From Fibrella aestuarina BUZ 2 (GTDB lineage Bacteria > Bacteroidota > Bacteroidia > Cytophagales > Spirosomataceae): a DNA stretch of 64,000 nucleotides. The stretch spans positions 6,337,815 through 6,401,814 of the forward strand of contig NC_020054.1 of NCBI RefSeq assembly GCF_000331105.1, read 5' to 3'. The notes under the pieces were generated by a model, which was not told the origin of the DNA, did not search any database, and was given only the letters and a program-made list of their open reading frames with translations. The position numbers and the translations under genes are program-made. This document shows positions 13,805 to 62,951 of the stretch, in pieces. The first letter of the stretch is position 1. Each line of letters starts with the position of its first letter.

Positions 13805-13903
13805 AATGAATAATGTACAATGAACAATGTATAATGGGCTTTCGCGTAAGCAGTGGACCTGCTAGTTCATTGTACATCGTACATTATCCATTGTACATCA
13901 TTT
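13805..13903. repeat. Imperfect long hairpin between omega-amidase gene and def
   Basis: Left arm about 13813-13836 and right arm about 13868-13900 pair with a few mismatches; both arms consist of variants of AATGTACAATGAAC. Related in sequence to the hairpin at 38740-38847. The def stop codon (13898-13900) lies in the right arm. Confidence 0.75.
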
Positions 13904-14476
13904 TGAAAAACGCATCTTGTATTCCACGTCGACGTTGCCTTTGGTGATGTCGGCGAGGCGCTTTTTGAGCAGTTGCCGTTTCAGGGGCGACATGTAGTCA
14001 GTGAAGAGCTTGCCGTCGAGGTGATCGTACTCGTGTTGAATGATCCGGGCAGCAATGCCGTCGTATTCTTCCACATGCTCGTTCCAGTCGAGGTCGACGT
14101 ACCTGATCTTGATGAATTCGGGGCGGTACACATCGTTTCGGATGCCGGGAATGCTGAGGCAGCCCTCTTCAAACGCCCATTCGTCGCCGTCTTCTTCCAG
14201 AATTTCGGGGTTGATGAACACCTTCTTGAACCCCACCAGAGACGGGTCGAACTCGTCATCATCGGGCGTTTCGTCTTCGTTCATGGGCGTACCATCGACC
14301 ACAAACAGCCGTAGGCTCTGCCCAACCTGCGGCGCGGCCAGGCCCACCCCCGAAGCGGCATACATTGTTTCAAACATATTGTCGGCCAACGTCTTCACAT
14401 CAACCTGACCTTTCTCGATCTCTTTGGCGCGCTTCCGCAGAACCGGATCGCCATAGGCTACAATTGGGAGAATCAT
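13898..14476 (-). CDS. def: Peptide deformylase
   Basis: Removes the N-terminal formyl group from nascent proteins. All three motifs are present: GVGLAAPQ (residues 43-50), EEGCLSIP with metal ligand Cys106, and QHEYDH with His148, Glu149 and His152. The length is 192 residues; an acidic insert NEDETPDDDEFD near residue 70 is typical of Bacteroidota forms. It lies downstream of ruvX on the same strand, separated by a long hairpin. Confidence 0.97.
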   Translation of the reverse strand: MILPIVAYGDPVLRKRAKEIEKGQVDVKTLADNMFETMYAASGVGLAAPQVGQSLRLFVVDGTPMNEDETPDDDEFDPSLVGFKKVFINPEILEEDGDEWAFEEGCLSIPGIRNDVYRPEFIKIRYVDLDWNEHVEEYDGIAARIIQHEYDHLDGKLFTDYMSPLKRQLLKKRLADITKGNVDVEYKMRFSK

Positions 14477-14490
14477 ATCACTTGTGCTTC

Positions 14491-14556
14491 ATGGTTGCTG
14501 TTTAGCGGTTGGCGTTCCTGCTCTGGCAACAACGTCAACCGCTAAACAGCAACCAT
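14491..14556. repeat. Long hairpin between def and ruvX
   Basis: 26-bp arms (14491-14516 and 14531-14556) with one mismatch around a 14-nt loop. It lies 14 bp upstream of the def start, within what may be a ruvX-def transcript. Confidence 0.85.
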
Positions 14557-14561
14557 CAAAC

Positions 14562-14975
14562 CTATTTTTTACTTTCCATAAATGATTGCAAAATGATCGT
14601 CGCGCTGACCATGTCGATGGCCCCTTTCTGGCGACGGTCTTTTTTGCTCGTACCACCGGCGATCATCGCCTGCAAGGCCATCCGCGACGTAAACCGCTCG
14701 TCGTGCTGGTAGACGGTCTGCTCGGGAAACACCGTTTTAAGCTTTTTAATTAGCCCCCGCACCGCCGCTGTCGTGTCGGTGTCGGAACCATCGGTATTGG
14801 TTGGCCACCCCACCACAAACCCCTCTACCGGCTCGGCCGCCGCATAGGCCTTCAGCCGGTCGATGAGCGTGTGGGTCGGCACCGTTTCGAGCGCCGTTGC
14901 AATCAATTGCAGCGGGTCCGTAACGGCCAGGCCGGTCCGTTTGTTTCCGTAATCAATCGCCACGAGTCGCGCCAT
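14562..14975 (-). CDS. ruvX: Holliday junction resolvase-like YqgF/RuvX
   Basis: 137 residues, RNase H-like fold. Acidic active-site candidates are Asp8 (AIDYGNKRTGLAVTDP), Glu93 (DERFTSR) and Asp121 (GAIDMVSA). The family acts on structured nucleic acid, with roles reported in pre-16S rRNA 5' processing and in recombination. Its promoter region is shared divergently with the toxin-antitoxin-like pair. Confidence 0.93.
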   Translation of the reverse strand: MARLVAIDYGNKRTGLAVTDPLQLIATALETVPTHTLIDRLKAYAAAEPVEGFVVGWPTNTDGSDTDTTAAVRGLIKKLKTVFPEQTVYQHDERFTSRMALQAMIAGGTSKKDRRQKGAIDMVSATIILQSFMESKK

Positions 14976-14984
14976 AGTGTGGGC

Positions 14985-14992
14985 AAAGGTAC
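14985..14992 (-). promoter_or_regulatory. Predicted -7 element for ruvX
   Basis: Reads TACCTTTG on the minus strand, matching the Bacteroidota TAnnTTTG consensus, 10 bp before the ATG, which would give a very short leader. No convincing -33 TTG at the expected distance. Confidence 0.5.
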
Positions 14993-15021
14993 GGCGAAAG
15001 GCGATTAGCGACTTCTTTTCG

Positions 15022-15029
15022 TAACTTTG
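15022..15029 (+). promoter_or_regulatory. Predicted -7 element for the vapBC-like pair
   Basis: TAACTTTG matches TAnnTTTG and lies 28 bp before the start codon of the small antitoxin-like gene. Confidence 0.5.
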
Positions 15030-15056
15030 TATATTGAGTTAGCTGTTATTCGGATT

Positions 15057-15221
15057 ATGAAAGCACCCAAGCCTCTTACCGTGCGCGAACCAGATAAAAC
15101 AACCAGACCGAAGAAAAAACGCAGTCTGGATAACTCGTCCTTGTTACCATTTTTCGGTAAGAGTCCTGAGGGTATTTGGGACAAGGATATCCATACGGGC
15201 GAAGGGGACAATAGCTTCTAA
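15057..15221 (+). CDS. Probable VapB-like antitoxin
   Basis: 54 residues from the ATG at 15057. The N-terminal half is basic and Pro-rich (TVREPDKTTRPKKKRSLDN); the C-terminal part, FFGKSPEGIWDKDIHTGEG, looks like the toxin-wrapping tail of small antitoxins, with aromatic and acidic residues. Its stop codon overlaps the start codon of the PIN gene by one base, implying coupled translation. No DNA-binding fold is obvious at this length, so the antitoxin call rests mainly on context. Confidence 0.6.
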   Translation: MKAPKPLTVREPDKTTRPKKKRSLDNSSLLPFFGKSPEGIWDKDIHTGEGDNSF

Positions 15222-15682
15222 TGGATGAGCTCATTCTTGATACGATCACGTTAGATTACCTCACCCGTAACCAGAAGGCACTTTCTTCAGCCGCCCGTAG
15301 GCGAATCGAACAAGCCGATACGGTCTATGTCTGCGTAGTCAGCATGTGGGAGCTGGCTAATCATATTCGCGAAGGACTCATCGTGTTGAACGCCGATTTC
15401 GACACGTTTTATCAGAAAGCCTTACAGACACTGGGCATTACGCTACTGGACACGCAGTGGCTGGCGCTCAACTACCTGTCTACGTTCGATTACCAAATCA
15501 TTAGTAAACCCTGGCAGCGAACGATTAAAAACACATTGATAACGGGTATCAAGCAGGAACTACACAAAGACCCGTTCGATCGGATGATCATTGCTCACGG
15601 CCTGACCATGAACCTACCCGTTGTGTCGCCGGATACACTCTTCCCCTATTACGCTGATCGCGGATTGAAGGTCATCTGGTAA
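15221..15682 (+). CDS. PIN-domain ribonuclease, VapC-like toxin
   Basis: 153 residues. PIN catalytic acids are visible: Asp7 (ILDTITLDYL), Glu44 (VSMWELANHIREG), and Asp117/Asp120 in HKDPFDRMIIAHGL, with Asp138 in SPDTLFPYY. This is the LLDTH/HDPFDR subtype typical of VapC toxins, which cleave tRNA or rRNA. It overlaps the antitoxin-like gene by one base. The helix 3-4 region is longer than usual (KPWQRTIKNTLITG). Confidence 0.85.
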   Translation: MDELILDTITLDYLTRNQKALSSAARRRIEQADTVYVCVVSMWELANHIREGLIVLNADFDTFYQKALQTLGITLLDTQWLALNYLSTFDYQIISKPWQRTIKNTLITGIKQELHKDPFDRMIIAHGLTMNLPVVSPDTLFPYYADRGLKVIW

Positions 15683-15873
15683 GATCGCGTCACGGTTCGT
15701 TTTCACCTCAAACAATGGCGGCGAATAAACGTACCAGAGGCAGCTTCGTCCCATTTGTCATTTTCTCAGAAAGGCCTTCAGATGGACAGGGATACGTTGC
15801 GCCCCTAACCAATTTTTGCGCCGCGCCGGTTCGTTCGTTGAATTATACTAGTTTTAATTCTTGTTAACCCAGT

Positions 15874-16158
15874 ATGACTGACACCAACATGGAGTTGCGC
15901 TCAATTGAAAAAGCCACCAGCGCCATCGCCGACAAGTACCGCCTGTCGATCCTGATGCAATTGGCCAAGCAGGAAACCATGACCAGTTCCGACGTGCAGG
16001 AGCTGACGGGCCTCTCGCAGCCCTGCGTGTCGCACCACGTCAAGCAGCTGACCGACAGCGGGCTAGTGGAAGCCCAAAAAGAAGGGCGTAACCTGTTTCT
16101 GCGCCTTAACAAACCGGCTTTGCAGGAATTGGGTGAGTTTCTGAAAAACCTCGGCTAA
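15874..16158 (+). CDS. ArsR-family transcriptional regulator
   Basis: 94-residue winged-helix repressor-type protein: ADKYRLSILMQLAKQE, then the helix-turn-helix TSSDVQELTGLSQPCVSHHV. The only cysteine is Cys51, in the recognition helix at a position usually Ser or Thr, so it lacks the classic CxC metal site. A second ATG at codon 6 is possible. The Old Yellow Enzyme gene starts 75 bp downstream on the same strand, so co-regulation is likely. It is not close to the arsenic genes at the right end. Confidence 0.88.
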   Translation: MTDTNMELRSIEKATSAIADKYRLSILMQLAKQETMTSSDVQELTGLSQPCVSHHVKQLTDSGLVEAQKEGRNLFLRLNKPALQELGEFLKNLG

Positions 16159-16233
16159 AATTTTTCAGCAACACATCCAAACTTTTAAATCTTTAAATAG
16201 GTTGTCCATCCGAATCGTACTAACCAAATCAAC

Positions 16234-17325
16234 ATGGCAACACAGCTTTTCGAACCTGCCCAATTGGGTAATCTGACCCTTTCTAACCATATCGTGATGG
16301 CCCCCATGACCCGCAACCGGGCCACGGCGAGCCACGACGTGACCGACATCATGGCTACGTATTACGCGCAACGGGCATCGGCCGGTCTGATCGTAACGGA
16401 AGGCATTGCGCCGTCGCCCAATGGAAACGGTTACGCCCGGGTGCCGGGTATCTACACCGCCCAGCAGGTAGCCGGTTGGAAACAGGTAACCGATGCTGTC
16501 CACGCGGAAGGCGGTCGTATTTTTGCCCAGTTGATGCACACGGGGCGGGTAGGTCATCCGGTCAATATGCACGAAGGCGCACAGATTCTGGCCCCGTCGG
16601 CCGTCGCTGCTGCCGGCCAGATTTACACCGATGAGCAGGGCATGCAGGATCACCCCACGCCCGAAGCCTTCACCATTGACCAGATCAAAGCCACCATCCA
16701 GGAGTTTGTTACCGCCTCGAAAAACGCTATTGAAGCCGGTTTCGACGGCGTCGAACTGCACGGCGCTAACGGTTACCTGATCGAGCAGTTCCTGCGCAGC
16801 ACCAGCAACCAACGTACCGACGAATATGGCGGTAGCGTAGAGAACAACGCCCGGTTTGCGCTGGAAATCGCCGAGGCTGTATCGACCGCCATCGGCAAGG
16901 AGAAAGTAGGCATTCGCCTCTCGCCCTATGGCGTGTTCAACGACATGCCCTACGATCCGGCTTTCGACGCCCTTTACCATTACCTCGCCAAACAACTGAA
17001 CGACCACGTGGTGTACGTGCACCTCGTCGATCACGAAAGCATGGGCGCGCCAGCCGTAGCCCCGGCAATCGTTGACGCTGTTCGCGAGCATTACACAGGT
17101 ACCCTCATACTGAGCGGTGGCTACACCGCCGAAACGGCCGAAGCCGCCCTCGAAAGTGGCCGCGCCAACCTGGTCGCGTTTGGTCGTCCGTTCATTTCAA
17201 ACCCGGATCTGGTTGAACGCCTGAAAACCGGTGCCGACCTGAACCAGCCCGACTTCTCGACCTTCTATTCGCCTGGCGAAAAAGGCTATACCGACTACCC
17301 GACCCTGGCCGAAGTGTCCGCCTAA
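16234..17325 (+). CDS. Old Yellow Enzyme family alkene (enone) reductase, NemA-like
   Basis: 363-residue FMN-dependent oxidoreductase that reduces activated C=C bonds of enones, maleimides or nitro compounds using NAD(P)H. Motifs: FMN-binding VMAPMTRNRA at the N terminus; GLIVTEGIAPSPNGNGYARV; substrate-binding His176 and Asn179 in LHGANGYLIEQFL; then the conserved TDEYGGSVENNARF. Cytoplasmic. It follows the ArsR-type gene and is ended by a good intrinsic terminator, so a two-gene unit is likely. Confidence 0.93.
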   Translation: MATQLFEPAQLGNLTLSNHIVMAPMTRNRATASHDVTDIMATYYAQRASAGLIVTEGIAPSPNGNGYARVPGIYTAQQVAGWKQVTDAVHAEGGRIFAQLMHTGRVGHPVNMHEGAQILAPSAVAAAGQIYTDEQGMQDHPTPEAFTIDQIKATIQEFVTASKNAIEAGFDGVELHGANGYLIEQFLRSTSNQRTDEYGGSVENNARFALEIAEAVSTAIGKEKVGIRLSPYGVFNDMPYDPAFDALYHYLAKQLNDHVVYVHLVDHESMGAPAVAPAIVDAVREHYTGTLILSGGYTAETAEAALESGRANLVAFGRPFISNPDLVERLKTGADLNQPDFSTFYSPGEKGYTDYPTLAEVSA

Positions 17326-17350
17326 GTCAGGTACGTTTCCAATAAATGTA

Positions 17351-17382
17351 AAAAGGCCCGTCGCAAGCGACGGGCCTTTTTT
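17351..17382 (+). terminator. Intrinsic terminator
   Basis: 13-bp stem AAAAGGCCCGTCG with CAAG loop followed by a T-run, 25 bp after the reductase gene. The A-run on the other side could also serve the convergent glycosyltransferase gene. Confidence 0.9.
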
Positions 17383-17399
17383 GTGCTCTAGGTGGTGAA

Positions 17400-19209: not shown

Positions 19210-19234
19210 CGGCTTCATTTTCAGCATAAACAGC

Positions 19235-20220: not shown

Positions 20221-20265
20221 ATAAGAATGGCGCAGGGAAATTCGTTTTCTCTGCGCCATTCTTAT
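20221..20265 (+). terminator. Hairpin after the PfkB kinase gene
   Basis: Perfect 15-bp arms ATAAGAATGGCGCAG and its complement, 15-nt loop; probable transcription end for the kinase gene though the T-run is weak. Confidence 0.6.
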
Positions 20266-20281
20266 TGATACGAACTCGACA

Positions 20282-21374: not shown

Positions 21375-21422
21375 CCCGACTTACCACCTTAAGGCAAGCT
21401 TGCCTTAAGGTGGTAAGTCGGG
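21375..21422. repeat. 48-bp perfect palindrome with no loop
   Basis: Two 24-bp halves meet at a HindIII-like AAGCTT centre with no mismatch. It sits between two minus-strand genes, 26 bp after the OPT transporter stop codon. No U-tract. Confidence 0.93.
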
Positions 21423-21448: not shown

Positions 21449-23533
21449 CTACTCGGGTTTGCTCAGGCCCACGCGACCCAGTGTCAGGGCCAACGCGACG
21501 AACGCCAACGTACCCAGCAGCATATAGCCACCTTCGCCCAGCGCGCCCGCCAGCGCCGGTTCGAGCGACAGGCTCGACAACGCCCGGAATGCCCCTTCGT
21601 TGACCGATAGCCCCGCGACCAGCACGCCCGCGAGTGCCCCGCCCGCCACCAGGCCCGTGGCAAACAGATTGCCTTTGCTCAGGTCATCGGTTTCTTCCGT
21701 TTCTTCTTCCAGCGGTGCGCCCGAATGCTTCACGATAAACTTTTTCGTCCGCCAATCAATGAAGGCCTTGACGCAACCACCCGCGAAAATGGGCAACGTG
21801 GTCGACAGCGGCAGGTACAGCCCCACGGCAAAGGCCAGCGCACTGATGCCCACCAGTTCAAACACGAAGGCCAGCACGGCCCCTACCAGCACAAACTGCC
21901 AGTCGAGGTTAAACGATAGCAGGCCTTTGATGAGCGTCGCCATCAACGTACCCTGCGGCGCGGGGTAGCGGTCGGAGCCGATGGCGTGGGTAATCCCCTG
22001 CGCCACCAGATCAGGCGTGGGCGTGTCGAGCAGTTTTACAGTAGCGCCAACGACAATCGACGAGACAACAACGCCGACAAACAAGGCCAATTGCTGCGCG
22101 CGGGGCGTGGCCCCCACCAGATAGCCCGTTTTCAAATCCTGCGAGGTAGCGCCCGCGTTGGCTGCCGCTACGCAGATCAGGCTGCCCACCACCAGCACCG
22201 CCGGTTCGTAGGTACGTCCCGTCAGGCCGATACCAATGAAAATCAGGGCCGTACCCATGATGGTGGCGATGGTCATCCCCGACACCGGCGATGAACTCGA
22301 CCCGATCAGCCCAACGATCCGGCTGGCGACGGTGACGAAGAAAAAGCCGAATACGAGCACCAGAATGGCAATCAGCAGCTTGGTCAGGTACGTGTCGCCG
22401 GGAATCTGTGGCAGCAGCACCATGATCGCCACTAACACCAGACAGCCAATCACGACGGTACGGCCGCTCAGTTCCAGATCCGTCCGCAGTACCGGGCCAG
22501 TAGCCGTTTTAGTGTCGCCCTTGCTGATCGATGACCGAAACGACGACACGATGGTCGGGATGGTTTTCAGCAGGGTCATGAACCCGCCCGCCGTAACGGC
22601 ACCCGCCCCAATCTGCCGGATGTAGGCCCGGTACACCGCCGCCGCCGTGTCGGTAAACGATTGGGTTGCGGGGTTCCAGCCTCCGGGGCCACCCGCTTTG
22701 GTCAGGTCGTCGAGGTAACCGAGTTTTTGCAGTTGTAGGGCAATGGTTTCGCCCGGCACCAGCGACGCCAGCAGCGGAATCAGACCCAGCCAGGCCAGGA
22801 AACCACCCGCCACGAGCACCGCCGAAATGCGGAACCCGATGATGTAGCCGACTCCCAAGTACTCCGGGGTGATTTCGCCCGCGACCTGCGCCGACGGAAA
22901 AAAGCGATTGGTTTGCTTGGTGGCCCAGACCGGCACCTCGGCCACGATATGCAACACTTTTTGCAGAGCGGCATACAGAAACGCCGCGCCCAGCCCCAGG
23001 TAGGCCGTCCGGGCGAAGTCGCCACCGCGTTCACCGGCAATCAGCACCGACGCGCAGGCTGTGCCTTCGGGATAGGGCAAGGTGTCGTGTTCATCCACGA
23101 TCAGCGACCGGCGCAGCGGCACCATCATCAACGTACCCACCAGCCCGCCGATGATCGCCAGCGTCAGGATCGTCCAGTAGTTGAAGAAGTCAGTGCCAGC
23201 GCCCTCGGTCAGAAACAAAAAACCCGGCATGGTAAATACCACGCCCGAGGCAATACTCTCCCCCGCTGAGCCGGTGGTCTGGATAATGTTGTTTTCGAGA
23301 ATGGTGGTGCCCAGAAACCGGCGGCCGAGCGAAATAGCCAGCACCGAAATCGGGATGGATGCCGATACGGACAACCCGGCTTTGAGCGAGAGGTAAACGG
23401 TGGCGGCGCCGAAGAGGACACCGAAAAAGGCACCCACCAGGATGGCTTTGAGCGATAGCTCAGCCGGTGATTCGGAAGCAGGGATGAAAGGCAAAGGCAG
23501 TGGTTCGTTTAAAGTACAAAGTCCAATGTCCAA
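21449..23533 (-). CDS. OPT family oligopeptide/metal-chelate transporter
   Basis: Up to 694 residues with about 14-16 membrane segments. The N-terminal ESPAELSLKAILVGAFFGVL and SVLAISLGRRFLG, then NNIIQTTGSAGESIASG, are hallmark motifs of the bacterial OPT/YSL group, which import peptides or siderophore-metal complexes. The start is unresolved: the 23533 TTG lies in a hairpin arm; CTG at 23500 or TTG at 23494 would remove the hairpin-encoded residues. No ATG is available there. Confidence 0.88.
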   Translation of the reverse strand: MDIGLCTLNEPLPLPFIPASESPAELSLKAILVGAFFGVLFGAATVYLSLKAGLSVSASIPISVLAISLGRRFLGTTILENNIIQTTGSAGESIASGVVFTMPGFLFLTEGAGTDFFNYWTILTLAIIGGLVGTLMMVPLRRSLIVDEHDTLPYPEGTACASVLIAGERGGDFARTAYLGLGAAFLYAALQKVLHIVAEVPVWATKQTNRFFPSAQVAGEITPEYLGVGYIIGFRISAVLVAGGFLAWLGLIPLLASLVPGETIALQLQKLGYLDDLTKAGGPGGWNPATQSFTDTAAAVYRAYIRQIGAGAVTAGGFMTLLKTIPTIVSSFRSSISKGDTKTATGPVLRTDLELSGRTVVIGCLVLVAIMVLLPQIPGDTYLTKLLIAILVLVFGFFFVTVASRIVGLIGSSSSPVSGMTIATIMGTALIFIGIGLTGRTYEPAVLVVGSLICVAAANAGATSQDLKTGYLVGATPRAQQLALFVGVVVSSIVVGATVKLLDTPTPDLVAQGITHAIGSDRYPAPQGTLMATLIKGLLSFNLDWQFVLVGAVLAFVFELVGISALAFAVGLYLPLSTTLPIFAGGCVKAFIDWRTKKFIVKHSGAPLEEETEETDDLSKGNLFATGLVAGGALAGVLVAGLSVNEGAFRALSSLSLEPALAGALGEGGYMLLGTLAFVALALTLGRVGLSKPE

Positions 23534-23601
23534 AGTTGGGATGCAAACCCGTAATCTGTTGCACTCCTACCAACTTTGGACATTGGACTTTGTACTTTAA
23601 A
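23508..23601. repeat. Long perfect hairpin between OPT gene and pyrF
   Basis: 32-bp arms (23508-23539 and 23570-23601) with no mismatch and a 30-nt loop. Arms are built from variants of AAAGTCCAA. The right arm contains the pyrF stop codon; the left arm may contain the OPT start. Confidence 0.93.
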
Positions 23602-24418
23602 CCAGGTACGTTGCCATTTCCTGCTGAATAGCGCGGGCTTCGGCGGCGGCCGCCTCGGCGAAATCGGTACCCGATGAGGCGTAGAGAATACTGCGCGACG
23701 CGTTGACGAGCAGGCCACCGTCGGGCGTCAGGCCATTTTTCGAGACATCGGCCAATGAACCGCCCTGCGCGCCCACACCCGGCACCAGCAGAAAATGCTT
23801 CGGGGCCAGTTCGCGGATGCGGCACAGTTGCTCGGCCTGCGTAGCCCCCACCACAAACATCAGTTGCTCGTGCGAAGCCCAGGTATTGGCTTTCTCGATG
23901 ACCGTCTCGAACAGTTCCTGCGTGTCGTTGTCGACCGACTGCCGTTGAAAATCGGCGCTGCCGGGGTTGCTCGTCAGGGCCAGCAGGATCACCCACTTGC
24001 CGGGGTAATCAAAAAAGGGCATCACCGAGTCATGGCCCATGTAGGGCGCTACCGTCACGGCGTCGAAGTCGAGCCCGGCCGCCGATTTATCAAAAAACGC
24101 CCGCGCGTATAGCCCCGACGTGTTACCGATGTCGCCCCGTTTGGCGTCGGCGATGGTGAAGCAGTCGTCGGGAATATAGTCGAGGGTTTTTTGCAGGCTT
24201 TCCCAACCGCGTGGTCCCTGCGCTTCGTAGAAGGCGATGTTGGGCTTGTAGGCCACGGCATAGGGGGCGGTAGCGTCGATTATGGCCTTATTGAACGCAA
24301 AAACAGGATCGGGCTCATGCTGCAAGTGCGATGGGAGTTTCTGAATATCGGTGTCCAACCCCACGCAGAGGTAGGATTTTTTTGCCTTGATGAGTGCCGA
24401 AAGTGCCTGATAATTCAT
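23597..24418 (-). CDS. pyrF: Orotidine 5'-phosphate decarboxylase
   Basis: Last step of UMP synthesis: decarboxylates OMP. 273 residues from the ATG at 24418, the longer OMPdecase type. The catalytic Asp-Lys-Arg cluster is in [13 protein letters not shown]; other motifs are [35 protein letters not shown] and [14 protein letters not shown] four codons upstream is less likely. Its promoter is divergent from rfbC. Confidence 0.96.
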
Positions 24419-28096: not shown

Positions 28097-28216
28097 GTCA
28101 TTTGCCTTCGGCGTCATTGATGGTCATTCGTAGTCATTCATTGTTTTTACGACCAATGACAATGAATGACTACGAATGACCATCAATGACTACGAATGAC
28201 GGCGAAGCCAAATGAC
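28097..28216. repeat. Very long hairpin inside the efflux operon
   Basis: Left arm 28097-28143 (47 bp) and right arm 28160-28216 (57 bp) pair nearly perfectly; the right arm carries one extra 10-nt CGTAGTCATT-type unit. Loop about 16 nt. It lies between the adaptor and pump genes. Confidence 0.9.
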
Positions 28217-29797: not shown

Positions 29798-29919
29798 AGT
29801 CTGGAAAGTCGGATAGCAAAGAAGTCCGTAGTCTGGATAGTCGTTTGGGTGTTGCTTACGCATTCTCACACAACGACTATCCAGACTACGGACTTCTTTG
29901 CTATCCGACTTTCCAGACT
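29798..29919. terminator. Exceptionally long perfect hairpin between convergent genes
   Basis: 48-bp arms (29798-29845 and 29872-29919) with no mismatch and a 26-nt loop, followed by CTTTT. It lies between the efflux pump and DJ-1 genes and could end transcription from both sides, but is far longer than a normal terminator. Confidence 0.93.
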
Positions 29920-33909: not shown

Positions 33910-33969
33910 TAAAGGCCAATGATCAAGGTCCAAGCGGTTTGCCACCTGGACCTTGATCATTGGCCTTTA
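33910..33969. repeat. Long perfect hairpin 3' of uvrA
   Basis: 23-bp perfect arms around a 14-nt loop, ending 2 bp beyond the uvrA stop codon. Confidence 0.88.
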
Positions 33970-33971
33970 CA

Positions 33972-36944
33972 CTAGACTTTCCCTTTCAGGAAATCAGCCG
34001 TATAGCTGACACCTTCATCGAGTTTGGTCATCTCTTCGGGCGTCCCGGTGAAGGTAACGTACCCACCCGCGTCGCCGCCTTCTTTGCCCAAATCGATGAT
34101 GTGGTCGGCGGATTTGATCACCTCCATATTGTGCTCGATGATGATCACCGAATCGCCTTGATCGACCAGCGCGTTGATGGCTTTCAGCAGCTTACGGATG
34201 TCGTGAAAATGCAGGCCGGTGGTGGGTTCGTCGAAGATGAAGAGCGTCTTGCCTTTGTTGGGATTGCCCTTAGTCAGGAACGACGCCAGCTTCACGCGCT
34301 GCGCTTCACCGCCCGACAGCGTATTGGCCGACTGCCCCAGGCCGATGTAGCCCAGGCCCACCTCCTGCAACGGCAGTAGCTTATCGACCATCTTCGGCTC
34401 GACTTTCCGGAAAAAGTCGATGGCCTCGTCGACGGTCATGTCCAGAATATCCGACACGTTCTTATCGCCCAATGTCACCTCCAGCGTTTCCTGCTTGAAG
34501 CGTTTGCCGCCGCAGCCTTCGCATTTGAGGTAAATATCAGCCATGAACTGCATCTCGACTTTTACCTCGCCTTCGCCCTGACACACCTCGCAGCGCCCGC
34601 CGTCGACGTTGAACGAAAACTGGCTGGGTTTGTAGCCGCGCGCTTTCGAAATCGCCTGATCGGCCATTACCTGCCGGAGGTAATCGTAGGCCTTGATGTA
34701 GGTAACGGGGTTCGATCGGCTCGATTTGCCGATGGGATTCTGGTCGATCATCTCGATCGCCGCAACCCGGTCCACGGAACCCGTCAGCTCGGTGTATTTC
34801 CCCGATTCTTCGCCCCCTTCGCCTTTTATGCGACTGAGCGCCGGGTAGAGCACCTTCCGAATGAGCGTCGATTTACCCGATCCTGACACGCCCGTCACGA
34901 CCGCCATTGTGTTGAGCGGAAAGCGCACGTCGACGTCTTTAAGGTTGTTTTCGCGCGCGCCTTTCAGTTCGATCCAGTGCGTCGGTTTCCGCCGGAACGT
35001 CGGCACCGGCACCGTCTCCCGACCGGTGAGGAAATCGAGGGTATGAGAGTGTAATGATGAGTGATGAGTGATGAATGATGAATGGGCCTTAGTAGGCGTA
35101 GTTGCTTCACCATTAGCAGTTTCATTCATCGTTCTGCGTTCATCATTCATCATTGAGGCGATAGCCTCCCATGTTCCCTGAAACACGAGGTGACCGCCAC
35201 CGGAACCGGCTTCGGGGCCGATGTCGATGATCTGATCGGCGGCGCGCATCACTTCTTCTTCGTGCTCCACCACAATCACGGTGTTGCCCATGTCGCGGAG
35301 GGTTTCCAGCACGCTCACGAGCCGCTGCGTATCGCGCGGGTGCAGCCCGATGCTGGGTTCGTCGAGGATGTACATCGACCCTACGAGCGCCGAACCGAGC
35401 GATGTTGCCAGCTTGATCCGCTGGTATTCGCCACCCGAGAGGCTGTTGGTCAGCCGGTTGAGCGTGAGGTAACCGAGCCCAACGCGCTCCATATAATCGA
35501 GCCGATTCTGAATCTCGACCAGAATCCGGTCGGCCACTTTACGATCGCCTTCGGGCAACGCAAGCGTGCGGAAGAACTGCGCCGTCTGCGCGATGGGCAT
35601 CAGCACCAGATCGGTGATCGACTTGCCGCCCACTTTCACGAAGCTGGCATCGCGGCGGAGGCGTGAGCCCCGGCACTCCGGGCAGGTGGTCTTGCCCCGG
35701 TAGCGCGACAGCATCACGCGGTACTGCACCTTAAACGTCTGGCTTTCGACAAACGAGAAGAAATCGTTCAAGCCGTTGAAATACTGGTTACCCGTCCAAA
35801 GCACCTCCTGCTGTTCGCGGGACAGTTCTTTGTAGGGCCGATGAATGGGGAAGTCGAACCGAATGCCGTTGCGCAGCAGCGGTTTCAAAAACTCCTCGCT
35901 CATCTTTTCGCTCCGCCAGGGCATAATCGCCCCTTCAAACACCGACAGGTTTTTGTCGGGAATGACCAGGTCGGGGTCGATCCCCAGCACCTTTCCAAAC
36001 CCATCGCAGCGGCGGCAGGCCCCGTAGGGGTTGTTAAACGTAAACAGGTTGACACTCGGCTCCTCGAAGGCGACCCCGTCCAGCTCAAACCGGTCGGAGA
36101 AATCGCGCACCTCGACGCCCACCACATCGACGCGGCAGGCACCCTCGCCCTCGTTGAAGGCCGTTTGTACCGAATCGGAGAAGCGGTACTGCGTGTCTTC
36201 GTCGGGTTGGCCGTTTTCATCCAGAATCACCGTTCCCCGGTCGATGAGGATGTACAAGTCGTTAGCGGGTAGCTGCGCATCGGCTGGGCCATCAAGCACA
36301 TCCTCGATTTGAAGCACCTGCCCCTCCGAGACCAGCCGCGTGTAGCCTTTTTGCAGCAGAATTTTCAACTCGGCGGTCAGGGGGCGGTCTTCGCGCAGGT
36401 GCAGCGGTGCCATCACCATCACCCGCTGGCTTTCGGGCTGGGCGAAGATGAAATTTACCACGTCGGTGACGGTATCTTTCTTGACCACCCCACCCGAAAC
36501 GGGTGAGTAGGTGATACCGACGCGGGCATACAATAGCTTGAGGTAATCGTAGATTTCCGTCGACGTACCCACGGTCGAGCGCGGGTTGCGCGACGTCACT
36601 TTCTGCTCGATGGCGATGGCTGGCGAAACCCCCTTGATGTACTCGACCTCAGGTTTTTCCATCCGGCCCAGAAACTGCCGGGCGTAGCTGCTGAGGCTCT
36701 CGACGTACATGCGCTGCCCTTCGGCAAAGAGCGTATCGAAGGCCAGCGACGACTTGCCCGACCCCGACAACCCCGTGACAACCACCAGCTTGTTGCGCGG
36801 AATGGCGACATCGAGGCTCTTTAAATTATGGACTTTCGCCCCCTTGATGATAATGAACTGTTTGGGGTCTAACTGATCAACCGACCCATTCAGGGTACCA
36901 GTGGAAAGAACGGGCTGAACGTCGGCTTCGGCTTGTTGACTCAT
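33972..36944 (-). CDS. uvrA: Excinuclease ABC subunit A
   Basis: Damage-recognition ATPase of nucleotide excision repair. 990 residues, about 40 longer than usual. Two ABC ATPase units: Walker [15 protein letters not shown] (residues 58-71) and [14 protein letters not shown] (about 684), signatures LSGGEYQRI and LSGGEAQRV, and zinc-finger cysteines [24 protein letters not shown] and CEGCGG. The excess length is residues about 597-635, encoded by an in-frame hairpin element (35041-35157) in the linker between the ATPase halves. All motifs are intact, so the protein is probably functional. Confidence 0.97.
35041..35157. repeat. In-frame palindromic element inside uvrA
   Basis: About 117 bp (39 codons): left arm about 35051-35083 and right arm about 35123-35155 are imperfect inverted repeats made of 7-bp GATGAAT/GATGAGT units, with a 40-nt loop. 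Read in uvrA frame it gives [12 protein letters not shown]... and [14 protein letters not shown], low-complexity sequence not typical of UvrA. Confidence 0.85.
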
Positions 36945-38294: not shown

Positions 38295-38741
38295 ATGACA
38301 CTGAAAGAACAAATCGACGCTGATATTAAAGACGCCATGCGCGCCAAGGAACAGGATCGCCTCCGGGCGCTGCGGGCCATAAAAAGCATGATTTTGCTCG
38401 AAGAAACGAAGGAAGGCGCCACCGGCACGATCTCGAAAGACGACGAAATCAAGCTACTATCGAAAGCCGTGAAACAACGCCGCGACTCAGCCGACATCTA
38501 CCGCCAACAGGGTCGCGAGGACCTGCTGGCCACGGAAGAAGCCGAAATCGCCGTGATCTCGAATTACCTGCCCAAGCAACTATCGGAAGACGAACTGCGC
38601 GCTAAAGTGCAGGAACTGATCGCGCAGGTGGGTGCCACCGGACCCGGCGACATGGGCAAAGTGATGGGCGCGGCCTCGAAAGCGCTCGCCGGCCAGGCCG
38701 AAGGCAAAGCCATCTCGGCGATGGTGAAGAGCTTGTTGTAA
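38295..38741 (+). CDS. yqeY: GatB/YqeY domain protein
   Basis: 148 residues: LKEQIDADIKDAMRAKEQDR, LRALRAIKSMILLEE, EEAEIAVISNYLPKQLSEDE and GDMGKVMGAASKALAGQAEG are standard YqeY motifs. Family members resemble the tRNA-binding tail of GatB, with an uncharacterised role in translation or tRNA handling. Its stop codon is fused to the start of a hairpin. Confidence 0.92.
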   Translation: MTLKEQIDADIKDAMRAKEQDRLRALRAIKSMILLEETKEGATGTISKDDEIKLLSKAVKQRRDSADIYRQQGREDLLATEEAEIAVISNYLPKQLSEDELRAKVQELIAQVGATGPGDMGKVMGAASKALAGQAEGKAISAMVKSLL

Positions 38742-38847
38742 TGTATAATGAACAATGTACGATGCACAATGACTACGTAATCACCCCGCAACAGCCAGGC
38801 GCCCCCGGCGGACCGCATTGTTCATCGTACATTGTTCATTATACATT
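38740..38847. repeat. Long perfect hairpin between yqeY and cvpA
   Basis: 25-bp perfect arms (38740-38764 and 38823-38847), extended by several more paired bases, around a loop of about 45 nt. Arms of AATGTATAATGAAC type, related to the hairpin at 13805-13903. Begins inside the yqeY stop codon and ends 6 bp before the cvpA ATG. Confidence 0.9.
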
Positions 38848-52295: not shown

Positions 52296-52387
52296 AAAAG
52301 TCCTCCGTCTACAGGCCTCCGTTGCGCTGCGTTTTCCACACTACGTGAGTTAGCAGCGTAACGGAGGCCTGTAGACGGAGGACTTTT
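52296..52387. terminator. Long hairpin between susD-like gene and oxidoreductase gene
   Basis: 35-bp arms (52296-52330 and 52353-52387) with one mismatch and a 22-nt loop, followed by a T-run. It lies between convergent genes and probably ends both. Confidence 0.9.
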
Positions 52388-57252: not shown

Positions 57253-57263
57253 TAGCTACCCCC

Positions 57264-57305
57264 AAACGCAAAAAGCCGCTTCCTAGGAAGCGGCTTTTTG
57301 CGTTT
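57264..57305 (+). terminator. Intrinsic terminator of the M16 peptidase gene
   Basis: 42-bp perfect palindrome with AAAAAGCCGCTTCCT arms and internal T-run. Confidence 0.88.
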
Positions 57306-57371
57306 AGGATGATATATGTCATTCGAATAAATCATCAATAATTCACTCAATGTCTGCCAGTGGAAACGTAC

Positions 57372-57917
57372 CTAGGCGGCTTTCTGAATCGGGACGACCG
57401 CCTGCGTTTCGTCCCAGGTCAAGAGCATATTCACGCCGCCGGGTTGCGGCTCAAAGCTGATGAAGAATTGCTCGGCGGCGGGCGTGTAGGTACGTGTCGG
57501 CACGGTCAGGCGCATGACGTCGGCGTCTTCTTTGTAGCTCACGCCCCACTGCCCCGTGCGGCGGTTGATGATGACCGTCCAGTCGGTGAGCGTCGGGATG
57601 GTGTACAGCGAGTAACGACCTTTGGTGAGCCGGTTACCCCCCAGACGTACATCCTGCGCCAGTTCGATGAGCGTAGCGGCATTGGCGCCTGTGCGCCAGA
57701 CGGTATCGTACTTCACCACGCCCCCGAAGACCGTGCGGCCCCGTTTGCTGGGCTGGCTGTAGGTCACCTTTACAGAAATGCCATTTTGCGTGACCTGGGC
57801 GACGGCTTTGGGGCTGCGGCTGCCCGACCAGCGAAGGTACAGCGCGATCAGAATCAGGAGGAGCACAACCCCACCAATTATGAGCCAGGTGGTTGTGTCG
57901 AATGCGGTTAAGTCCAT
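57372..57917 (-). CDS. DUF2911 membrane-anchored protein
   Basis: 181 residues from the ATG at 57917 (an upstream TTG is less likely). One N-terminal anchor (TTTWLIIGGVVLLLILIALY), then a periplasmic beta-rich DUF2911 domain: VFGGVVKYDTVWRTGANAAT, LTKGRYSLYTIPT and INRRTGQWGVSY. Function unknown in the family. Confidence 0.88.
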   Translation of the reverse strand: MDLTAFDTTTWLIIGGVVLLLILIALYLRWSGSRSPKAVAQVTQNGISVKVTYSQPSKRGRTVFGGVVKYDTVWRTGANAATLIELAQDVRLGGNRLTKGRYSLYTIPTLTDWTVIINRRTGQWGVSYKEDADVMRLTVPTRTYTPAAEQFFISFEPQPGGVNMLLTWDETQAVVPIQKAA

Positions 57918-57954
57918 GAGCAATGAAAACAGATTGTGGCGCAAGAGTAAGTAA

Positions 57955-57978
57955 AAAGGCCCGTTTTAGCGGACCTTT
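57955..57978 (-). terminator. Intrinsic terminator of aspS
   Basis: On the minus strand AAAGGTCCG pairs with CGGGCCTTT via one G-T pair and is followed by T residues. Confidence 0.75.
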
Positions 57979-58008
57979 CTAGCAGTATACAATCAAACAG
58001 GTTTCTCC

Positions 58009-59757: not shown

Positions 59758-60044
59758 GATAAGGTCTCAAGGGCCAACGGTGGCGACCAACAATCAAGAG
59801 TAGCACCGCGGGTATTGTCCCATCGACTGCGTTGACCGGCCAACGTTGAACGTAAAAAGTGGCCGCAAAAATAGCCAGCTTAGCAGGGTTTCGCAACGAT
59901 AAAGGTGGCGATGGCAACGCCGATGACGCAGATTGAGGGGATGGTCGCGGATTCGTGACTAGCGCCGACCAACAAGTAAGCGATTATCCTTACACAATCC
60001 GTACTTATCTGCCCAATCCGCGTCCTCTGCATTCAATCTGTATG
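59758..60044. other. Intergenic region without a supported gene
   Basis: 287 bp between aspS and the DUF5723 gene, both leftward. Apart from the aspS upstream region nothing recognisable was seen. Confidence 0.5.
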
Positions 60045-61502
60045 CTAGTCGTTGTCGGTGTTGCGGGAGCCGAAGCCCATCGCCAGCCCCAGGTACACAT
60101 CGACGCCACGCGGGCGGATGCCGTTGTTGCTCGTACCAATTAGCCCCAGCAGGTTATCAGACCCGGCCCAGACTGGCCCGGCCCGTAGCGACAGCCCTAC
60201 CTGCGCGCCCCCGTTGACCACCGAAAGCGGCACCGATACGCCGCCCCATTTTACATCGTAGCGGGGCACGATGGCCAGCACGGTAGGCTGGTGAGCCGCA
60301 ATGGCCGAGTTGCTGCGCAGATCCTGCCACAAAGCGACCTGCAACCCCAGGCCCGTAGGCAGTGCGTAGTCGGCCGAGAGGTTGAGCGACGTCGGGAGCC
60401 CGCTCGTAAACTTACCCCGGTTCTGCGCTTCGGTCACGCCCAGCTTTTCGCGGATAATGTTCACGGCCTGCTCGGTATTGCGCACATCGTCGAAATCGCT
60501 GGGCAGGAATCTCGTTTTCTGCTGCGTGATATCATACGACTCGCCCGAGTACGTCACGGCGCCCAGATCGGTCAGGGCCAGCCCCAGGCGCATGGTGGGA
60601 CTTTCCGAATCAAGCTGACGTACATAGGCAAGCCCAACGTCGACACCCACGCCGCGGCCCGGCGCATTGCCGCTGACCAGCGAACTGAGCGTCAGGTTTT
60701 GGTTATTCAGGAAGGACGTAAAGCCAAAGTCGGCGTTGATGCGGCTGATGTCGAGGTAGCCCCCGTCAGGTACGTTCGGGTCGGGTAAGACGGTGTAGTC
60801 GAGGCCCCGGTTCACGAAATAACCCGAGGTAAAGCCCACCAGGTATTTTAAGGTAATACCCGCCATCAGTTTGTCGGTCTCCGATTCGAGCAGTGTATGC
60901 CCGATGCTCGCGGCCAGTTCGCCATATACGTTTGTGTTTACGCTGAACGCATTGTTGCGGCTGGGAATGCTGTAATAAGCCGAACTGGCCAGGCTGGCCC
61001 GAATCGCCGCCAGCAGTTGCTCCGACGCCCCCCAAATCTGGCCCGATGCCCGTAGGCGCGTCGACAGCCCGATAACGGTGCGTGGTCCGAGGCTCAACTG
61101 CGCCGCTGGCCCCCGGAATTCGGCCCAAAGCGTGCCGTTTTTGGGTTTACCATCCAGTATTTCCTGCGTGTAATCGGTTTCGAAGCGGAGCGCGCCGTTG
61201 GCCTGCCGATACTGCCCAGGTACGTTGCCGGTCACCAGGCGCAACAGCGAGTACGGTGCCTGATACCGTACGTAATTGTTGTTGACGTTGAGGCCCACTG
61301 CCCCAAGGCTGAAGTAAAACCGGTGGGGTGAATCGGCCAGCCACGCCGGATTTTGGTAGGCACGGTGAATTCCCCCTTCTGGACTAGTCGTTAACCCCAG
61401 CAGGTTCTGCGCGGATGCGACGAATGGGGCAAGACCGGCACCAAGAAGAAAGAGCCGACGGAGGTAGGATCGCGTACGCAAAGATGAGTTGGTTGTATTC
61501 AT
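60045..61502 (-). CDS. DUF5723 family outer-membrane protein
   Basis: 485 residues; signal peptide ending FVASAQ, followed by a beta-barrel-like repeat pattern with IHRAYQNPAWLADSPHRFYF near the N terminus. This NPA motif and the general layout fit the DUF5723 group, which resembles long-chain fatty-acid channel type barrels. Ends VDVYLGLAMGFGSRNTDND. Function unknown. Confidence 0.75.
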   Translation of the reverse strand: MNTTNSSLRTRSYLRRLFLLGAGLAPFVASAQNLLGLTTSPEGGIHRAYQNPAWLADSPHRFYFSLGAVGLNVNNNYVRYQAPYSLLRLVTGNVPGQYRQANGALRFETDYTQEILDGKPKNGTLWAEFRGPAAQLSLGPRTVIGLSTRLRASGQIWGASEQLLAAIRASLASSAYYSIPSRNNAFSVNTNVYGELAASIGHTLLESETDKLMAGITLKYLVGFTSGYFVNRGLDYTVLPDPNVPDGGYLDISRINADFGFTSFLNNQNLTLSSLVSGNAPGRGVGVDVGLAYVRQLDSESPTMRLGLALTDLGAVTYSGESYDITQQKTRFLPSDFDDVRNTEQAVNIIREKLGVTEAQNRGKFTSGLPTSLNLSADYALPTGLGLQVALWQDLRSNSAIAAHQPTVLAIVPRYDVKWGGVSVPLSVVNGGAQVGLSLRAGPVWAGSDNLLGLIGTSNNGIRPRGVDVYLGLAMGFGSRNTDND

Positions 61503-61544
61503 GCGCAGGCTACACTACAGGTTGTCTATAGGTAGCTATACGCC

Positions 61545-61586
61545 GCAAAGAAAACGCAACGCGGCTAAAGCGTGCGTTTTCTTTGT
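61545..61586. terminator. Hairpin between DUF5723 gene and nfu
   Basis: 14-bp arms GCAAAGAAAACGCA with one mismatch and a T-run on the plus side; may end nfu transcription from the right even though the U-tract is on the other strand. Confidence 0.5.
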
Positions 61587-61674
61587 TTTTCTGATGAAAC
61601 GGACGAAAGACCGCCTGACAGCCCGACGTTTTCTGGAATTACCCGCACCGATGGCCGTTAGGCAACCCGGCGGC

Positions 61675-62277
61675 TTAAACGCCCTCAGCTTCAACCGTTT
61701 TCACGGCAGGCACCAGGCGCGTCAGCAAGTTTTCGATACCAGCTTTCAACGTGAGCGTTGACGAGGGACAACCACTGCATGAGCCCTGCAACAGCACTTT
61801 CACCGTGCCGGTTGCTTCGTCGAAGGCGTGAAAATTAATGGCGCCCCCGTCTGACTCAACCGCCGGCCGGACGTACTGGTCGAGCGCGGCTTTGATCTGC
61901 TGTACGGTTTCGCTGTCGGCTTCGAGGCGGGTCGAGTTCAGCTCCATGGTGCGCTGCACAAACACGGGCTTGTCGGCCTCAAAATAGTCTTTCAGGAAGA
62001 CCTTTACTTCAAATAGAATCTCACCCCAGTCGACGTCTTCGTCTTTGGTCAGGGTGATGAAATTACCGGCAATAAACACCCGACGGACACCATCGACGCC
62101 AAAAAGCGCCACGGCGAGGGGTGAATTTTTGCCTTCTTTCAGCGCTTCCGACGGCTCGGCATAGTCGAACGAAAGACCATCTGGAACCAATTCTCGGTTC
62201 AGCACGAACTTCATCGAGTTGGGGTTCGGGCTTTGTTCCGTATAAATCGAAACGGGCGGGCGCAACGCTGCGTGCAT
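61675..62277 (-). CDS. NifU-family iron-sulfur cluster carrier (Nfu)
   Basis: 200 residues with an N-terminal Nfu_N domain (IYTEQSPNPNSMKFVLN at 11-27) and C-terminal NifU domain containing the cluster-binding CxxC, Cys167-Cys170 (GSCSGCPSSTLTLK). Transfers Fe-S clusters to client proteins. It is a single gene. Confidence 0.93.
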   Translation of the reverse strand: MHAALRPPVSIYTEQSPNPNSMKFVLNRELVPDGLSFDYAEPSEALKEGKNSPLAVALFGVDGVRRVFIAGNFITLTKDEDVDWGEILFEVKVFLKDYFEADKPVFVQRTMELNSTRLEADSETVQQIKAALDQYVRPAVESDGGAINFHAFDEATGTVKVLLQGSCSGCPSSTLTLKAGIENLLTRLVPAVKTVEAEGV

Positions 62278-62379
62278 GGTAATGAGGTTAACGTTTGAAG
62301 GTTAACGTTGACCGTTCTGCGCAAAGTTCAACAAATAGGACGATGAGCGATAAACGGTGAGGGCATAACGTGGGCTCGC

Positions 62380-62808
62380 CTAGTCTTTATCACTCGCCAC
62401 TCTCGTCACAAACGCCTCGCTGAAGGCTTTGATCTGATCGCGGATGCGGGCGTAGTTAGCCATGACGCTCGCTTCGTCGGGGCCGGTGACTTTAGAGGGG
62501 TCTTCGAAATTATGGTGTAGCCGATTGGTTTGCCCAATCCAGACGGGGCAACGCTCAGCGGCGCTATCGCAGACCGTAATCACATAATCGAATGGAAGGT
62601 GCGCGTACTCATCCACGTGATTCGACGTATGATGGCTGATGTCGATCCCATCGTCGGCCATCGTCTGTACGGCGCGGGGGTTCAGGCCGTGCGTTTCGAC
62701 GCCCGCGCTGTACACCGCCGCCCGGTCACCGGCGAACCGTTGCAGGTACCCATGCGCCATCTGGCTGCGGGTCGAGTTACCGGTGCAGAGAACAAGGATA
62801 TGTAACAT
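62380..62808 (-). CDS. arsC: Thioredoxin-coupled arsenate reductase
   Basis: Low-molecular-weight phosphatase-type ArsC, 142 residues. Nucleophile loop CTGNSTRSQ with Cys8 and Arg14, and the redox pair Cys80/Cys87 in VCDSAAERCPVW, matching the triple-cysteine relay of S. aureus ArsC. Reduces arsenate to arsenite using thioredoxin. Last gene of the arsM-arsN2-arsC run; a hairpin region separates it from arsN2. Confidence 0.93.
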   Translation of the reverse strand: MLHILVLCTGNSTRSQMAHGYLQRFAGDRAAVYSAGVETHGLNPRAVQTMADDGIDISHHTSNHVDEYAHLPFDYVITVCDSAAERCPVWIGQTNRLHHNFEDPSKVTGPDEASVMANYARIRDQIKAFSEAFVTRVASDKD

Positions 62809-62828
62809 AGTCAGGTTAGTGTTTTCTA

Positions 62829-62951
62829 TTCACTGTTGACAGTCCACTGTTTGTCGAAACGAATTGCTTGCTGTACAGATGCCGATATGGGGGATGAGCC
62901 GTTGACAACAGTGAACGGTAGACGGAGGACAGCGAACAGTGGACTGTTAAC
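62829..62951. repeat. Inverted-repeat region between arsN2 and arsC
   Basis: CACTGTTGACAGTCCACTGT-type left arm pairs with ACAGTGGACTGTTAAC at the right end; an extra partial copy lies between. The right end reaches the arsN2 stop codon. Confidence 0.7.

Follow-up and report, generated by a model that had tools for sequence, protein, structure and literature searches.

The 64,000 nucleotides of the Fibrella aestuarina BUZ 2 chromosome analysed here (the window; G000:C2:6337815-6401814, in a two-contig genome of 6.94 Mb denoted G000) contain very long hairpins of differing sequence next to the ends of genes, and raise the question of which process produces and maintains them. A preliminary description of the window listed twelve sites with long inverted repeats, held many of their arms to be made of short degenerate units and their sequences to be largely unrelated, and suggested a generating process such as template switching rather than descent from one repetitive extragenic palindromic (REP) family. 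In our interpretation, held with moderate confidence, these are hypervariable hairpins at the level of the chromosomal DNA, common in Fibrella, Larkinella and Spirosoma, which template switching would tidy and flip and which would be replaced from a stock of word families.

Inverted repeats are present at all twelve sites listed previously, nine of them strong and three weak (1174, 35053 and 62835, the last two given before as 35041 and 62829), and further ones were found. The hairpins of the window, to which no strand is assigned, and the gene that hosts one of them are as follows.

1174..1243, no strand: weak hairpin after a plus-strand gene; 23-bp arms with 4 mismatches (19/23 paired), loop of 24.
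7109..7190, no strand: hairpin absent from the preliminary description; 33-bp arms, 33/33 paired, loop of 16; 4 nt past a plus-strand stop codon and followed by TTTTG.
13804..13893, no strand: RATGNAY hairpin in the CN_hydrolase/def gap; 26-bp arms with 3 mismatches (23/26), loop of 38.
14488..14559, no strand: hairpin in the def/ruvX gap; 34-bp arms with 4 mismatches (30/34).
20221..20265, no strand: short-loop hairpin absent from the preliminary description; 20-bp arms with 1 mismatch, loop of 5.
21375..21422, no strand: perfect 48-bp palindrome; 24/24 paired, no loop.
23507..23602, no strand: GTYCAAN (AAAGTCC) heptad hairpin; 33-bp arms, 33/33 paired, loop of 30.
28107..28196, no strand: GTCATTN hairpin; 38-bp arms with 2 mismatches (36/38), loop of 14.
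29798..29919, no strand: AGTCTGG-family hairpin; 48-bp arms, 48/48 paired, loop of 26 with GTTGCTTACGC.
33910..33969, no strand: hairpin 2 nt off the 3' end of uvrA; 28-bp arms with 2 mismatches (26/28), loop of 4.
33972..36944, minus strand: uvrA (990 aa), in which the in-frame hairpin lies.
35053..35154, no strand: GATGARY heptad hairpin, in frame inside uvrA; 32-bp arms with 6 mismatches (26/32), loop of 38.
38740..38847, no strand: RATGNAY hairpin; 32-bp arms with 1 mismatch (31/32), loop of 44.
52296..52387, no strand: hairpin occupying a convergent gap save for 11 nt and 1 nt; 35-bp arms with 1 mismatch (34/35), loop of 22.
57261..57308, no strand: near-perfect 48-bp palindrome absent from the preliminary description; 1 mismatch.
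62835..62951, no strand: degraded ACAGTG-word hairpin; ungapped 17-bp arms with 1 mismatch (16/17), loop of 83.

The hairpin at 29798 occupies a whole convergent gap, with 4 nt and 3 nt separating it from the stop codons on either side, and that at 38740 begins within a YqeY-family gene's stop codon. By eye, neither the hairpin at 7109 nor the palindrome at 21375 has a heptad build; each perfect 33-bp arm at 7109-7190 is itself nearly palindromic (AAACCTATAAGG..CCTTATAGGTTT). The palindrome at 57261 lies 11 nt past a plus-strand gene, counted from 57264, and may, like the hairpin at 20221, be an ordinary terminator. Rfam gave 0 matches at gathering score within the window.

Long hairpins are abundant well beyond the window. 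An ungapped finder requiring an arm and a score of at least 20 was applied to two samples of the own genome, and detected 40 inverted repeats in the 464-kb sample and 87 in the 864-kb sample, whereas three dinucleotide shuffles in 500-bp blocks gave 0 in either case; the excess over shuffled DNA that the preliminary description had made a test of its claim is thus real. Extrapolation from the 87 in 864 kb puts the whole genome at roughly 700 long hairpins. By context, 49 of the 87 lay between tandem genes, 35 between convergent genes and 1 between divergent genes, with 2 having one neighbour unknown; for comparison, the sampled gene pairs comprised 115 convergent, 408 tandem and 109 divergent ones. 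None of the 87 fell within a predicted gene (the imperfections of the uvrA hairpin keep it out of this set), and at the lower score of 16-19 one of 27 did. With laxer settings, applied to the own genome, Larkinella and other Fibrella, the median distance from the upstream stop codon to the hairpin was 7 nt for ++ (n=83), 7 nt for -- (n=54) and 11 nt for +- contexts (n=95), and 186/232 hairpins lay at most 30 nt from a stop; these distances are unfiltered, an earlier filter of at most 80 nt having kept 75/83 and 86/95. The same sets held 11 hairpins in divergent contexts and 4 in predicted genes, all of them in Larkinella.

The elements measure about 40-140 bp and consist of two arms of 20-58 bp, some with a short GC-rich apex (GGCTGACGC, GGCTGGCGC or GCTTACGC). 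That the arms are built of degenerate short units was borne out when they were pooled: 75 own arms of at least 24 bp gave a match of 0.432 at lag 7 against 0.274 in shuffles (z 15.4), and of 0.422 at lag 14 (z 12.8). A period of 7 was also found in other Fibrella (31 arms, z 8.6) and in Larkinella (58 arms, z 9.1), and a weaker period of 8 appeared in some arm sets. It persisted after exclusion of RATGNA words, the 55/75 own arms then left giving a z of 6.8 for lag 7 and of 3.7 for lag 8. Taken singly, 34/75 own, 14/31 other-Fibrella and 20/58 Larkinella arms (68/164 in total) had a significant period of 5-12, mostly 7, so that most single arms are non-periodic by the arm-wise test; at least half of the letters recurred at 7 bp in 55/164 arms, the shuffle mean being 5.35. 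The words, read by eye, have fixed and variable positions (RATGNAY, GTYCAAN and GARTKAA, as well as GATGARY), and the pooled arms have the 7-bp period with fixed and free positions of heptameric repeats. Moreover, apex modules are common to differing arms. GGCTGACGC occurs 27 times in 864 kb, 15 times inside inverted repeats (here with arms from 14 bp, covering 1.5% of the sequence), and it is also present in hairpins of Spirosoma and Larkinella loci. GGCTGGCGC and GCTTACGC lay inside inverted repeats in 11/59 and 6/30 cases, GCTTCGC was not enriched there (4/172), and three control 9-mers gave 0/6, 0/23 and 0/18.

The idea that these sequences are unrelated held for a part of them. At E<=1e-3 the 87 hairpins formed clusters of 21, 5, 3 and 3 and five clusters of 2, which left 42 clustered and 45 singletons. 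Ten window hairpins belong to this set: 38740 falls into the cluster of 21, 28113 and 29798 into pairs, and seven are singletons. The hairpin at 13805, too imperfect for the set, had 71 own-genome matches (both strands; best 40 of 195 candidates), and that at 29798 had 35 dispersed ones, both strands counted. With about half of the hairpins clustered and the homologues of 29798 dispersed, the contrast drawn with descent from a REP family does not stand as it was written; the reverse expectation, that the arms would align to a few genome-wide families, is half borne out, there being several families and not one. From the AGTCTGG family 21 own-genome copies (the window copy and 20 others), intact and decayed alike, were compared. 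Among the 12 copies with an intact arm of at least 30 bp, the two arms of a hairpin were 96.8% identical (512/529) and different copies 79.0% (1850/2343).

Identity between hairpins remained limited. The best full-length same-genome paralogue reached 81% for the 29798 hairpin (48/48 arms) and 84% for another hairpin with 40/40 arms (best 40 of 79-103 candidates per genome, with part-matches of up to 100% over 27 nt), and the best paralogue of a 55-bp hairpin of locus L010 in its own genome, G004, reached 82% over its full length. The best pairwise identity among the 87 hairpins was 89%. No near-identical full-length copies were found in the single-genome searches (two of them being of the best 40 candidates per genome), no donor of a young hairpin was found at high full-length identity, and two hairpins sought on plasmids gave no match. 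As to the origin and movement of the hairpins, clustering by descent points to copying from site to site, and the absence of near-identical copies to a source that is mutagenic or older.

Orthologous gaps showed that sites are kept where sequences are not. By one protein, the nearest named relatives are Fibrella forsythiae, F. rubiginis and F. aquatilis (80-83% identity), F. rubiginis being the source of locus L010 and of G004 (100% match). The def-ruvX gap contains the window hairpin in BUZ 2, a GTTTCAG hairpin in L009 and the 55-bp RATGNAY hairpin in L010 and L011. The CN_hydrolase-def gap carries the RATGNAY hairpin of the window and a differing, purine-rich 34-bp hairpin in L009, and no inverted repeat of at least 10 bp in L010 and L011. 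Other words, with ungapped arms of only 10 bp, occupy the gap orthologous to 28107 in G004 and G003, and in G001 this gap holds no inverted repeat of at least 10 bp.

Such turnover was counted in three Larkinella species, A, B and C (260, 300 and 146 kb compared; 93-94% identical over 20-kb loci). From genome A to B, 19 of 40 hairpins (arm and score at least 18) were placed and 21 were not; the placed ones were the same in 4 cases, the same but inverted in 5, partly alike in 1, replaced in 3, absent in 5 and other in 1. Over all six directions, in which sites are counted from both sides, 90/172 were placed, with 20 the same, 21 inverted, 16 partly alike, 18 replaced, 11 absent and 4 other; the absent class includes misplacements through flank repeats (A140444, A211016), and weight is given only to sites read through. 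At one site the three species have three hairpins (C98434, A219348, B165323), two of which share a word family; at another, A retains the words of the outgroup L026 and B and C have a different hairpin in common. Species C alone, one of four species, carries a hairpin of about 120 bp between apparent stop and start codons, a clean gain for which neither its own genome nor those of three relatives gave a second copy and for which neither a target duplication nor a local source was seen by eye. The test proposed in the preliminary description, whether close relatives keep hairpin loci in the same place with other sequences, gave a positive result at several sites.

The arms of orthologous hairpins changed together more often than expected. 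In 26 comparisons with 678 arm pairs, 596 pairs were kept, 65 had changed on one side, 13 had changed on both sides and were still paired, and 4 had changed otherwise; from the single-change rate about 0.5 paired double changes would be expected, by estimate. In the same 26 comparisons the loops were direct in 11 cases, inverted in 10 and uninformative in 5; by our own count, 6/13 informative sites show an inversion. Inversion depended on arm length: in the three species, 13/34 informative intergenic comparisons with arms of at least 16 bp had an inverted loop, against 1/41 where the arms measured 9-15 bp (Fisher test, p 1.3e-4). None of 182 loops in coding sequence with arms of 9-15 bp was inverted, as would be expected there anyway. 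Of 71 Pontibacter pairs tried, 15 were direct and 1 was inverted, the latter with a 19-bp arm. Template switching from one arm of an inverted repeat to the other has as its signature paired changes together with in-place inversion, the latter favoured by long arms, and the data support strand switching that flips loops and partly repairs arms. The template switching suggested in the preliminary description is supported for the upkeep of the hairpins rather than for their creation, the one clean insertion examined having neither a second copy nor a visible local source. Indels of at least 6 nt in orthologous hairpins were multiples of 7 in 18/67 cases against about 1 in 7 expected, from alignments which include replaced parts and are not relied on.

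A paired change in hairpin arms is usually read as RNA selection. Arm mismatches in tandem contexts, taken in the transcript sense, were of the G-U type in 72 cases and of the A-C type in 69. Selection for RNA pairing would favour G-U, so that the lack of a G-U excess gives no sign of it.

One hairpin of the window lies inside a protein gene. The GATGARY heptads at 35053 are in frame in uvrA, at a site taken, from domain positions, as the linker between the two UvrA halves. This linker was extracted in 116 of 120 listed homologues (own protein and twin included; best 8000 candidates scored) and measured 60-92 aa. Several linkers read as both strands of a heptad hairpin, with differing words: SDELLVMSDE..SSLITNNSSL, NEELRIRN..FLILNSSF and SEELRVKNN..SSLLTLHSSF. 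The linker DNA is that of the own genome, and relatives were judged via codons; codon-compatible mirrored runs had a mean of 16.4 nt against 13.0 nt in shuffles, and 23/116 linkers exceeded all 30 of their own shuffles against about 4 expected, most linkers having no mirrored run by this test. In P0003, the nearest named relative (93% over residues 400-900), the linker is shorter and of another sequence. With mirrored words of many families, the UvrA linker is a hot spot and a natural experiment in hairpin turnover inside a protein; the findings as a whole suggest that in this core repair protein the linker is overwritten by the process that acts on the intergenic hairpins. As a terminator would be harmful inside uvrA, the site favours a tolerated process at the DNA level.

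The word families are lineage-specific. Many matches to the RATGNAY hairpin of L010 were listed in G004, G002 and G000, and those listed in G001 and G003 fall within genes; a 2.5-kb query from L010 gave 128 matches in G004, 93 in G002 and 56 in G000 (best 40 candidates in these three), 6 in G001 and 5 in G003. Four consecutive RATGNAY words occurred 98+111 times in G000 and 101+99 times in G004, and the reversed pattern 0 times; a further 40 genomes among the 395 also contained them. Of 121 genomes of the family, those with matches to the 29798 query were the five of its own genus (at most 7 candidates scored per genome), and in 3/4 congeners the matches were partial. In a small survey of 20 kb around one orthologue, one locus per genome, 62 hairpins were found in 28 loci (L009-L036: Fibrella, Spirosoma, Fibrisoma, Larkinella, Rudanella, Arsenicibacter) and 3 in 25 others (L037-L061). 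The locus L038 of Runella, a genus of the same family, had none, and not every family member is hairpin-rich. No publication on such hairpins in Spirosomataceae was recognised by its title or the start of its abstract among the literature matches listed, which is no proof of absence.

Further repeats were seen in the same material. More than 50 four-word RATGNAY matches were present in four Bacteroidota genomes outside the order (G040, G161, G299, G329); the matches listed for G040, G161 and G299 look like homogeneous AATGGAT arrays, and most of the examples listed from beyond the genus are tandem arrays of homogeneous sequence. A heptad-like hairpin, AGAGAGACTACAGAGAAACAACAGAGAGACAACAGT, is also present in a Gemmatimonadetes contig (L054:13451), and the heptad style may extend to other phyla. 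A three-member family, GTCATYCYGACG..GGAGGGRTC (L070:19372, L105:13806, L106:2392), is unlike the heptad hairpins and is probably a REP-type palindrome. Finally, a compound element with CAACAGCGNAGCGTCGGTAG in its arms lies between genes at L031:7585, L033:7798 and G001:C55 (54710 of the joined stretches), that is, in Larkinella and one genome of the genus Fibrella, and looks like a separate REP-like family.

In the mechanism that we propose, the elements would sit where DNA is tolerant, directly past stop codons and in the UvrA linker. During replication a polymerase would change over from arm to arm, through template switching or some equivalent exchange of strands; at times one arm would be copied onto the other, and the loop would often be turned around. 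Slippage between like words might lengthen and shorten arms and be the source of the 7-bp period, which fits the heptameric excess of bacteria that the available part of one study, citing earlier work, relates to polymerase slippage as a hypothesis (PMC4692102). Arms left alone would decay, and whole hairpins would be gained or replaced at a high rate from the stock of word families, new ones presumably being copied from other hairpins. We infer that template switching in replication, rather than RecA recombination, is at work.

Several points weigh against this interpretation. Loops could also be turned round by an invertase or through RecA recombination of one arm with the other. One-sided arm changes (65) outnumber paired ones (13), and correction is thus slower than mutation over this time. 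Simple recent copying would not predict that paralogues of even perfect hairpins are only 81-84% identical. Within the AGTCTGG family, the choice of intact copies was biased and flatters arm identity, and over all 21 copies, gapped and with no threshold, arm-to-arm identity was 83.2% (918/1104), barely above the 79.0% between copies; paralogues alone are therefore no proof of concerted arms, and the orthologues carry the weight. These are themselves partly non-independent, coming from three species, with both directions counted in the arm-length test, and 82/172 hairpin placements failed. The gene calls, made with a hexamer script, are crude, and the G-U comparison is a weak test, because a single mismatch in a stem of about 30 bp costs little.

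It is possible, though rather unlikely in our view, that the hairpins are several non-autonomous mobile palindrome families of the REP/REPIN, miniature inverted-repeat transposable element or Rickettsia-palindromic-element type, moved by a transposase, with the heptads merely their sequence. The 42/87 clustered hairpins with one cluster of 21, the dispersed homologues, word families that differ between lineages, the clean stop-start gain in one of four species and the in-frame presence in a protein are all consistent with it. However, the Y1 transposase (PF01797) had 0 matches in G000 (2, 3, 3 and 3 in G001-G004), 45/87 hairpins are singletons, no near-identical full-length copies were found (best 81-84% in single-genome searches, two of them on the best 40 candidates per genome; 89% among the 87), and the insertion peculiar to one species lacks both a second copy in that genome and a visible target duplication. 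An explanation through RNA, by which the hairpins would be long but ordinary intrinsic terminators or stabilisers of mRNA 3' ends kept by selection, appears unlikely to us. It agrees with hairpins a few nt past stop codons that fill convergent gaps, and with the frequent swapping of one hairpin for another rather than its loss. Intrinsic terminators should have a U-tract directly after the stem, and this was generally lacking: at least 4 T within the first 6 nt were present at 38/251 long-hairpin ends, above the estimated 5% or so, and at 2/43 short-hairpin ends, and absent from 213/251 and 41/43, respectively. The near-equal G-U and A-C counts and the in-frame uvrA hairpin, together with some relatives that have mirrored words at the same linker, speak against it as well.

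It is likewise unlikely in our view that hairpins are written from 7-nt words by some dedicated, or unusually active, process (a polymerase or reverse transcriptase, say, which after copying a short template folds back), each being born perfect and new before it decays. Perfect 40- and 48-bp arms whose nearest full-length paralogues reach merely 84% and 81%, intact and decayed copies within one family, a pooled period of 7 across different words and the same apex on unrelated arms would all follow from such a process; against it, clusters by descent exist, no enzyme was found in searches that covered Y1_Tnp and SbcD only, and bacterial heptad excess has been ascribed, as far as the available text goes, to polymerase slippage (PMC4692102). 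A bolder variant is unlikely, if somewhat easier to entertain: in a Spirosomataceae process a polymerase, perhaps with an apex-recognising factor, would string together 7-nt words, copy the arm back, repeatedly overwrite tolerant sites with a fresh perfect hairpin in any of several words, and flip the loop at later visits, with shape and site inherited and sequence disposable. Very improbable, finally, is accumulation of long hairpins through loss of SbcCD. The own-genome SbcD (TIGR00619) scored only 25.5 bits, below the cut-off, at G000:C2:5569104-5569361, but G004, which is equally RATGNAY-rich, has a full SbcD (194.7 bits) and 49/79 genomes of the order pass the cut-off, and loss of SbcD was rejected as a general cause.

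If the interpretation as hypervariable hairpins subject to template switching is right, they are a natural record of how DNA copying tidies, flips and replaces inverted repeats, and the rate of template switching and its arm-length threshold become measurable by plain resequencing. Covariation in bacterial intergenic hairpins should be read as RNA function only with caution.

Related behaviour is known from other systems. In chloroplast hairpins, minute inversions are flipped loops. Sponge mitochondrial DNA has repetitive hairpin-forming elements between genes that are divergent in structure and composition (PMC2800124); both systems are organellar, and heptad words do not feature in the available part of the sponge account (PMC2800124). 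Large surveys would miss most hairpins of the present kind, judging from the accessible methods of one which takes spacers of at most 8 bp (PMC13155455) and from the RepRanger defaults of palindromes of at most 32 nt and loops of at most 11 nt (PMC12306157). REP/REPIN elements with a RAYT transposase, so far as the source is available, are alike in being dispersed intergenic palindromes (PMC3116915), but here the own genome gave no match to a Y1 transposase, and singletons make up half of the hairpins sampled. The in-frame palindrome in uvrA resembles Rickettsia palindromic elements, unlike which it shows many different words at its site. Those elements are in-frame palindromes inside proteins and form a few conserved families. 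They are named, with Claverie and Ogata cited, in the available part of PMC2267715.

The preliminary description considered the hairpins the best candidate in the window for an undescribed system, which is qualified by two precedents, heptad inverted repeats after genes in Xanthomonas (PMC4692102) and arm homogenisation with spacer inversion (PMC8604942, PMC8794818); what we describe is a known template-switching signature, here acting on heptad hairpins. According to the available parts of these sources, template switching in yeast genes gives arm homogenisation and spacer inversion, the latter preferring long arms (PMC8604942), and RNA hairpins are created and maintained by template switching with rare loop inversions (PMC8794818). 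Arm homogenisation, compensated changes and inversion of the spacer or loop are the same there as here. Loop inversions are few in those accounts (10 in yeast genes, PMC8604942; 69 loop-only RNA clusters, PMC8794818), whereas here, in bacterial intergenic elements, the loop was inverted in 10/21 informative comparisons of long hairpins between species that are 93-94% identical.

Nearest in kind are the degenerate (GGGANTN)n heptads of Xanthomonas, which, in the part of the report available, are intergenic, lie nearer the 5' neighbouring gene, vary between close species and include convergent pairs, 70 and 75 in number, that could fold into inverted repeats (PMC4692102). Both have 7-bp words with fixed and free positions. 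In Xanthomonas one G-rich word type was studied as a quadruplex, whereas many word families per genome and near-perfect long arms occur here, and it is the shared apex modules, loop inversion and whole-hairpin replacement that set the Fibrella-type hairpins apart from those heptads as the available account presents them (PMC4692102).

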